Below are positions 14,901 through 17,900 of a stretch of DNA of 64,000 bases, one piece after another. Where the stretch lies: positions 13,350,363 through 13,414,362 of the forward strand of contig NC_064535.1 in NCBI RefSeq assembly GCF_023856365.1, in the 5' to 3' direction. The position numbers and the translations under genes were made by a program. A model generated the notes under the pieces. It was not told the origin of the DNA and ran no database searches. It worked only from the letters and a program-made list of their open reading frames with translations. Origin of the DNA: Brienomyrus brachyistius (lineage: Eukaryota; Chordata; Actinopteri; Osteoglossiformes; Mormyridae). Every line of letters begins with the position of its first letter. The first letter of the stretch is position 1.

Positions 14901-17900
14901 TCACTGGGTTTCTTCTGAGCTTAAGAGTCTTTATAGTCTGGGCCAGACTCACAAATATGTGGATGCCAGTTAAGGAAAGAGGGTGATCTAATCAGTGCTG
15001 TAGCTCTGTACTGAAAAGGCATCAGCACTGCACACAAACGTAGGCACATGCTAACAAAATCATCAGTAACTGAAAAAAATCAAATAAAGGAACAGGCAAC
15101 ATGCATTCAGTCACTTCCATTTTGTTGAACGCATACCAATTACATCGCTTCTGGAATGGCACGGCAGCAACAGCCCGACTGGGTTGTGAACCAGCAACCT
15201 CCCCGTCCATGTTACTACTACACATTCACATTTTAAATTCTATATTAATTTAATTAGCAGACAATTTTATCCAAAGTGACAAAGAATTAGGCAAACTAGC
15301 CCTTGAGGAAATGAGGTTAAGAGATGTGCTTGAGGGCCAAACCATTTTGCTGACTGTGGGATCTGAACCAGCAACCTGCCAATCACCAGCACAGCATCCT
15401 ACCCCACAAAGCTGGATAACAGGATAACTGGACTGAGAATAAAGGTGGAATCAATGCAATAAAAGCCTCAGAAGGTAAAAAGAAGAAGAGAGAAGGCAGG
15501 GAGACAGGGCAGCCAGACAAGCAAGCCATAAAGGATATCCACCAGCACAGAGAGGAGTCGAGTAGAGCCAGCGGAATGTTGGCAAGCAGGGCCAGATCTG
15601 AGTCCTTCGCCTACAAGAGAGGAGGAAGCAAGGAGGAGGCACAGCAGGAGCGCGAATCAGGAGCTGCATCTCCATACAAAGACAATGATTAGTACACGAT
15701 TCGGGGAAGCAACTCACTAAATATGACCCTTTCCTGCACTCTTAAAATCCCATTTTTCATGTTGGAGAATAAATCATTTCCTTACAAAAAAGGGCTTTGT
15801 AAAATGCCATTAAACCAAACTACAACAGCAAAGGATATGAACCAGATGCAGCAGCAGTCAATCACCGCTAAGACAACGTTGGTGATTAGGGTTTTGCTAT
15901 TCTCTCGGCCCTTTCGAGAGAGAGACACACACACACACACACACACACACACACACACACACACACACACACACACACACACACACACACACACACACAC
16001 ACACACACACACACACACACACACACACACACACACACACACACACACACGACTCAGGTTAGACGTGCAGTGCCACACGCGCTCACACTGACATGCCATG
16101 GTTCCGACAACAGATAACGGCAAACTTGTAGTTCATGTTACAGCCGGTGAAGGAGCTTCCTCATGTTCACAGGAGAAACTACTTTCTAAACAAGACTAAT
16201 TAAATTCTTGTTTTTAAGAAAATGAAATGAGTGCCTTAACATTCAAAAATCGGTGATTAAATGATGAAAAGATTGAGGACTAGAAGGGCAGATCTCAATA
16301 GATTCTATGGTTTTATACGCTAGCTTTCTGCATAGAATATCACACCCTGTCAAATAAGCATATTTTCGGAAACTGAACAAAAAGGTATGAATGGTATTTT
16401 ACCACAGTAATTCTCAGAACACCTTCAATAGCAGCAAAGGCGAAGTATAGCACTCCGAGCCCCACCACTCGGTGCATGACGGTCCCCAGGCGAGGCCTAA
16501 ATACGGGAAATAGTTGAAATCAAGTGCACAATAACACAAGCGCCTACCAGCTGAGAACAACAATACTGTAGCACCTAGCTAATTTAAAACTATTGAATGT
16601 CTGTGGCTAAATCTGAATAAATCATAATAAAGGCCACCACTACAAATCTCTAAGCAAGAAATAAACATTCGTACATCATTAATTCAGAGGTGGTCCTTTG
16701 AATTACACTGCCACTTGGGATGTGCCGTGCTGAGGAGCATAAAGCGTGCAGACCAGGGAAAGCCTAAGAGGAAGAGCAACGCAGCGGCTCGGCGCTCACT
16801 TGATGATCCCGTATCCCAGGCTGACGATGATGACCAGCAGCCGGGCCAGGGTCCTCTTCAGGGCCGAGAGGAGCTCAGCGAATATCAGCAAACCTTGAGC
16901 TGCGACGTTAGAAGAAAAATAACCAGTGAACCCAAGCATCTGAGATTAAGTAAATATTTATATAACTCTGTATCGCGGACATTCTTTAAGAAAAGCTAGA
17001 ATAATCAGGGAAGAAAAACAACTAAAGACATGCAGTCTTTGGTAATATCCTGGTGAAGATGGGCGCTAGTGAGCGCTGGGATACGGGCACTTACAGGCTG
17101 AGCCCACCGTGTTGGTGTTCTCGTATTCGGCGCAGAAGACGGCCATCTCCACCATGCCCAGGAAGATGACACCGGCGATCCAGAACTGGATCCTCAGGAG
17201 ATCTTTCCAGTAGCAGGCGGACCACAAGAACCAGAACAGTGCATAGAGAATGTACACCATGCACATCACCATGTAGAACTGACAGAGAGAAGTGGGTGGG
17301 GGAAAGGGAGATGATCACCAAAAACAGGTACAGCTACCAGATTCAAGCACACTCTTCACTCATGGTATCAGATACACTACCTGGCCAAAAAAAAATAATA
17401 AAAAAAAAAAAAATCGCACACTATAATGTTTTGTTGGACGACCTTTAGCTTTGATTATGAGGCACATTGGTGCTGCATTGTATCTACGTGCTTATGCAAC
17501 ATCAACATTTTTTTTTTTCATCCAGATTTGCATTCATTTCTTGTCGAGATCTTGCACTGACGATAGGTGAGCTGGACCACTCTGTAAAGTCTTCAGCACA
17601 TCTAAAAGACTTCCAATGGGGTTAAGGTCAAGGCTCTATGGTGGCCAATTCATGTGTGAAAATGATTCCTCGTGCTCCCTGAACCACTCTGACAATTCAA
17701 GGCTGATAGATCTTGGCATTATCTTCCTGGAATTTGCTCATGACATTAGGAAAGGAAGAATCCATTGATGGGATAACCTGACCATTCAGCAGATCCATGT
17801 ACTCAGCTGACTTCACTTCACTGCTGCATAACATTGCTGAGCTGCAATAATGATCCAATCATTGGCTCTTAAGTACTTGCTAATTTAAAGTTAAACTGTG

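Follow-up and report, generated by a model that had tools for sequence, protein, structure and literature searches.

The tmem87b gene of Brienomyrus brachyistius

The window analysed here, a stretch of 64,000 nucleotides of Brienomyrus brachyistius genomic DNA, harbors a tmem87b gene, which encodes a Golgi membrane protein and whose start codon was placed at 23169 and whose stop codon was placed at 11907 in the gene model.

11907..23169, minus strand: coding region of tmem87b (20 coding exons in each message, or 21 if both cassettes are counted)

With either of two alternative cassette exons (12a and 12b, see below) the 20 coding exons form an open frame of 560 codons, and every intron of the gene has GT-AG ends except for the one ending at exon 13. 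In the protein search the form with 12a was 100% identical over 560 amino acids to P0001, an entry named 'transmembrane protein 87A isoform X1' from Brienomyrus brachyistius, where isoform names such as X1 and X2 denote predictions. Pfam analysis of the window protein revealed the TMEM87A-B_GOLD domain (PF21901) and the GOST_TM seven-TM domain (PF06814), both above cut-off, which places the protein in the TMEM87 / GOST family.

Over the whole protein the identity amounts to 56.4% with macaque TMEM87B, 55.9% with mouse TMEM87B and 47.9% with human TMEM87A, while a paralogue encoded on C14 shares 55.1% with TMEM87A and 45.6-47.4% with TMEM87B. Based on these identities the window gene is assigned to TMEM87B and the C14 gene to TMEM87A. 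The name tmem87b, already chosen in the initial annotation, is thereby corroborated (56% to macaque and mouse TMEM87B versus 48% to human TMEM87A), although the NCBI label of the window protein reads '87A'. Genome searches, in which only the best candidates were scored, gave no TMEM87 loci beyond those on C3 and C14.

Upstream of tmem87b, at about 29032..29526 on the minus strand, lies the C-terminal part of a receptor tyrosine kinase resembling Mer (best PDB match Mer with 49.3 bits, TYRO3 with 32.8). This neighbor is in keeping with the human genome, in which MERTK and TMEM87B adjoin.

Cassette exons and splice sites

The region from exon 11 to exon 13 contains the following features, listed in the direction of transcription:

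16403..16496, minus strand: exon 11 with the U2-type donor GTG/gtaaaatac at its end (U12 donor score 4/9)
15925..16050, minus strand: (GT)63 microsatellite in an AG-free stretch before the 12a acceptor (sequence reading)
15839..15910, minus strand: cassette exon 12a, A-type, 72 bp, 24 amino acids (gene model; deposited Brienomyrus protein)
15830..15838, minus strand: U12-type donor of 12a, ATATCCTTT (9/9 pattern match)
15780..15785, minus strand: GTAAGG, a cryptic U2-type donor located 53 bp beyond the end of 12a (donor scan)
15539..15610, minus strand: cassette exon 12b, B-type, 72 bp, 24 amino acids (gene model)
15530..15538, minus strand: U12-type donor of 12b, ATATCCTTT (9/9 pattern match)
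14969..14977, minus strand: U12-type branch site TTCCTTAAC (9/9 pattern match)
14959..14960, minus strand: AC acceptor common to both U12 introns (sequence)
14850..14958, minus strand: exon 13, the common downstream exon (gene model)

Both cassettes are 72 bp long, lie in phase 0 and are separated by 228 bp. The scans were run with the U12 donor and branch consensus strings RTATCCTTT and TTCCTTRAY. Both cassettes are followed by the same donor, which matches the pattern at 9/9 positions and represents a U12-type AT-AC 5' splice site ATATCCTT(T), whereas scores of the remaining 18 donors in the model range from 2/9 to 6/9. The branch A of the 9/9 site is located 11 nt before the AC end at exon 13, as expected for an AT-AC intron, and a scan of all model exons gave no 9/9 U12 branch site at any other tmem87b exon; exon 18 reaches a branch score of 8/9, yet GTGAGT, an ordinary donor, precedes it. 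The acceptors of 12a and 12b end in AG, and no U12 branch candidate with its A 8-22 nt upstream was found at either of them. Accordingly, the anatomy proposed in the initial annotation, namely two in-frame 72-bp exons in phase 0 with given coordinates, sites and spacing, a U2-type AG acceptor on each, an identical U12-type 5' splice site behind each and the only matching U12-type branch site and AC acceptor at the next exon, was confirmed throughout. The available part of PMC3584512 states that donor and branch site define U12 introns and that mixed termini (AT-AG or GT-AC) are disfavoured.

On the minus strand RTATCCTTT occurs with 9/9 matches at 3 of 63,940 positions, two of which are the ends of the cassette exons, and the single occurrence of TTCCTTRAY in the window, both strands counted, is the branch site of exon 13. 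As such the motifs are not strongly over-represented in the case of the donor (count 4, shuffle mean 1.47) and not over-represented in the case of the branch site (count 1, shuffle mean 3.30). It is the placement at exon borders and not the abundance of the motifs that chance fails to explain, and on the strength of these scans chance placement was rejected.

The protein segment encoded by the cassettes

Both cassette peptides align with the same stretch of human TMEM87A, residues 355-377, which according to the TM assignment in the accessible text of PMC11239671 corresponds to the TM4-TM5 loop and the first part of TM5. This agrees with the earlier proposal that both exons encode the same half of TM5, and the pair follows the JNK type also in that two peptides of 24 amino acids each occupy one and the same place. 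The cassettes themselves share only 31 of 72 nucleotides and a fraction of 0.25 of their residues; due to this low identity their homology rests on position and on shared end residues. Human TMEM87A matches the 12b form with 114.8 bits versus 88.7 bits for the 12a form.

The same source describes D371, C375 and W376 of human TMEM87A as contacts of a bound lipid, and all three fall within the stretch covered by the cassette. D371 and W376 are retained in 12a and 12b, while 12b also keeps C375 and W377, which are replaced in 12a by I and F, respectively. Lipid or gap properties may therefore change between the isoforms.

Splice-site incompatibility and alternative explanations

The two cassettes, each with a U2 acceptor and a U12 donor, are flanked by a U2 donor on one side and a U12 acceptor on the other, which is the layout of the JNK type. 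In such an arrangement the U2 donor of exon 11 would join only a U2 acceptor, that of 12a or 12b, and exon 13 with its U12 branch site and AC end could be reached only from a U12 donor, at the end of 12a or of 12b. With the 12a donor barred from the 12b acceptor and exon 11 barred from exon 13, a normal message would contain exactly one cassette. In the choice of the cassette the U12 donor of 12a would compete with the U2 acceptor of 12b, and tissue factors would set the outcome. The swap would replace the TM4-TM5 loop and the initial part of TM5, next to the TM5/TM6 gap that faces the lipid, and the two proteins would probably differ in their lipid-filled cavity. For Brienomyrus we infer this splicing from the sites, the reading frame, the conservation of the cassette types and the use of the exons in mouse. 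We consider it very probable that the locus corresponds, as the orthologue in fish, to the mutually exclusive exon pair known from TMEM87B and that its normal message carries exactly one cassette.

Messages with none of the cassettes (1611 nt) or with both (1755 nt) are open frames without a stop. As skipping and double inclusion both stay in frame, nonsense-mediated decay (NMD) cannot sort such faulty messages and was rejected as the enforcer, leaving splice-site incompatibility as the best explanation of exclusivity. Steric exclusion is unlikely at a spacing of 228 bp; for comparison, the available sections of PMC5740500 apply a donor-to-branch-point distance below 50 bp. Although NMD, steric closeness and competing RNA structures have been described for other exon pairs (PMC5740500, PMC6071210 and PMC7969005, as far as these sources were accessible), it is highly improbable that one of them enforces exclusion here instead of U12/U2 incompatibility, since the mixed site types alone suffice. 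In PMC5740500 U2/U12 incompatibility is reported for five human clusters (0.79%); TMEM87 is not named in the portion of its main text at hand. The role of site incompatibility put forward in the initial annotation is thus supported by the sequence facts, by RNA-seq and RT-PCR on the mouse orthologue and by the JNK-like layout within the same genome.

The stricter statement that 12b cannot splice to 12a holds with respect to the site types, but exclusivity may not be absolute, because a cryptic U2-type donor (TTT/GTAAGG) follows 53 bp after 12a and because two fish models, P0008 and P0023, hold both cassettes. A leaky pair, in which this donor sometimes admits both exons, would yield either a substrate of NMD, the product joined to 12b being frame-shifted with stops, or a long form; P0023 indeed shows both cassettes linked by a read-through peptide. 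We regard such leakage as unlikely, given that only 2 of the 120 matches listed contain both cassettes and that, in the part of PMC6717393 seen, mouse reads joining exons 11 and 11a are absent.

The 12a acceptor is preceded by an unusual tract, which consists of CTAAC (A at -149), (GT)63 ending 14 nt before the exon and the acceptor ctctctctcgaaag. The 220 nt upstream of 12a contain no other YTNAY site, and from -142 to the acceptor AG is absent. The layout is that of a distant branch point in which a GU tract replaces the pyrimidines. The UG tract at CFTR exon 9 is a precedent for an effect of such a repeat on exon use and suggests, by analogy, that (GT)63 affects the use of 12a, possibly in a length-dependent manner. 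That in the elephantfish lineage the length of (GT)63, read by UG-binding proteins, tunes the ratio of TMEM87B isoforms is a speculative and rather improbable extension; if true, the repeat would work like a dial of variable length that adjusts a U12/U2 exon switch.

The same tract could also mean that Brienomyrus uses only 12b and that exon 12a is in decay, with an acceptor impaired by (GT)63 and by the absence of a branch point nearby. In line with this, 12a shows a mean identity of only 0.567 to the listed fish A cassettes (itself included), as compared to 0.986 for 12b and the fish B cassettes, and for Paramormyrops, a related mormyrid, the listed entry (P0002) has the 12b form. The difference is tempered by the generally higher variability of A cassettes in fish (0.747 versus 0.974). 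Furthermore, 12a retains an intact 72-bp frame and a perfect U12 donor, it is contained in the deposited Brienomyrus isoform X1, and an A-type cassette occurs in 70 of the 120 matches listed. Loss of 12a is hence very doubtful, and the use of both cassettes in a mutually exclusive manner is preferred.

Conservation of the two cassette types

The protein searches were evaluated for the best 120 of over 2,100 matches each, all of them from fish or mammals where named. Of 2,277 matches to the window protein the best 120, all from fish where named, comprised 68 of A-type, 50 of B-type and 2 containing both, i.e. 118 of the 120, mostly predicted proteins, carried one cassette type. This count takes in 18 entries which read through the U12 donor ATATCCTTT as ISF, among them P0004, P0034 and P0042 as well as P0008 and P0023. 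We read most of these as annotation errors at AT-AC introns, while real use of the cryptic U2 donor after 12a is possible. From a practical point of view, automated annotation seems to fail at the AT-AC intron, and this AT-AC exon is often mis-annotated. In P0095 and P0105 the A-type cassette runs directly into IFVSLAQT on contigs of at most 3,368 bases, which are too short for the unspliced gene of 11 kb.

Thirteen fish species with several entries were picked by eye, seven of which had A and B on separate entries, one A and A+B, and five A only. Likewise, 13 of 14 mammals picked by eye, a non-exhaustive set, had A and B and one had A only. A search with a mammal-type query gave 67 matches with the A pattern, 50 with the B pattern and three with neither among the best 120 of 2,144. 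Among the TMEM87B proteins listed, both cassette types are represented in fish and in mammals.

The B cassette is highly conserved, with a mean identity of 0.974 within fish and 0.740 from fish to mammal, as compared to 0.747 and 0.379, respectively, for the A cassette. Mean A-to-B identities are 0.274 and 0.295 across clades and 0.381 between fish A and fish B. Since fish A resembles mammal A (0.379) no more than it resembles fish B (0.381), the A-to-A link is modest; by identity alone the orthology of the A cassettes would be weak, and it draws in addition on LAVxDSxxxWF as a common ending. The pair probably predates the divergence of fish and tetrapods, which dates back over 400 million years, and the simplest reading is one exon duplication before this divergence. 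The distribution points to two protein forms kept since then.

Comparison with known systems

The exon arrangement of TMEM87B is already known, and the pair in Brienomyrus represents its conserved equivalent in fish, not a system of a new kind. The paired cassettes described in the initial annotation are real, but their arrangement does not count as a discovery, since the mouse pair was described by Olthof et al. in 2019 (PMC6717393). According to the parts of that paper available, exons 11 and 11a of mouse Tmem87b are both 72 bp long, mutually exclusive and used in a tissue-dependent manner. Mutual exclusion was demonstrated there by RNA-seq and RT-PCR, without reads joining the two exons, and RT-PCR combined with AvaI digestion indicated that the 11a form predominates in cortex. 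U12 donors follow both mouse exons, and dependence on the minor spliceosome was inferred from the U12-type donor of intron 11a. The same paper lists Tmem87a and Tmem87b among ten mouse genes with a skippable upstream exon. Its general remark that alternative splicing at individual minor introns is seemingly not conserved between mouse and human counts slightly against a wide conservation of cassette use.

In the CC-licensed PMC literature no paper on the fish TMEM87 exon pair was found; a goldfish transcriptome (PMC2556351) and a study of prostate splicing (PMC3533750) each mention TMEM87 once in the text accessible, without the exon pair. PMC2941758 places TMEM87A beside the tissue label CNS in a table, and a review (PMC8329584) puts TMEM87a/b beside MAPK8/9 as having the same interlocked JNK-like layout, both as judged from excerpts of these sources. 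The Brienomyrus gene shares with mouse Tmem87b the pair of 72-bp cassettes, the U12 donor after each, a common minor-intron acceptor and, in all probability, the mutually exclusive use. It differs in being a fish copy, known from DNA sequence, with (GT)63 before its upstream cassette. The TMEM87B switch described in mouse probably extends to ray-finned fish.

The paralogue tmem87a on C14 has a single 72-bp cassette, SFYGTVALMADLSLSLIDSCVMWW (L005, 9511-9582), which ends at the U12-like donor ATATCCTTAA; its exon 13 is preceded by an AC acceptor, where by eye only the branch-like site ATCTTTGAC was read. Sequence reading, a U12 donor scan and tblastn gave no second cassette in L005 9201-9813, a range in which a diverged copy could be missed. 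One cassette type fits 113 of 120 listed tmem87a matches, the other seven having the same peptide with an altered end, and this cassette is nearer to 12b than to 12a (fish set, 0.416 versus 0.326). The switch appears to be confined to tmem87b in Brienomyrus. TMEM87A (human structures 8CTJ and 8HSI) is thus a member of the same family with a 72-bp exon at the same place, a U12-like donor and an AC acceptor, but with one cassette found in the Brienomyrus paralogue, whereas mouse Tmem87a is reported, in the part of PMC6717393 at hand, to skip the upstream exon.

As a control, a JNK query, on which the gene name of the loci depends, gave four loci in the same genome (on C2, C7, C3 and C20), each with two cassette-like matches and a downstream exon. 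At these loci (L033, L034, L035 and L036) all eight cassettes are followed by GTATCCTT, which agrees with the donor pattern at 8/9 positions. Near three of the four downstream exons a branch-like site with 7-8/9 matches was found (TTCCTCGAC, TTCTTTAAC and TTCCCTTAC); at L035 the branch score is only 5/9, the match there running into the intron and the likely place lying outside the scan. As the JNK-like loci exhibit two cassettes with U12 donors, the anatomy test recognizes a known system. The likeness to the alternative JNK exons noted in the initial annotation is borne out by these loci together with the accessible part of the review PMC8329584. In MAPK8/9 (exons 6a/6b, also 7a/7b) as in tmem87b, two U2 acceptors and two U12 donors are interlocked and one cassette enters each message, in tmem87b most probably, but JNK is an unrelated kinase family with a separate exon duplication, and in Brienomyrus its U12 donors begin with GT, in contrast to the AT-AC ends of tmem87b.
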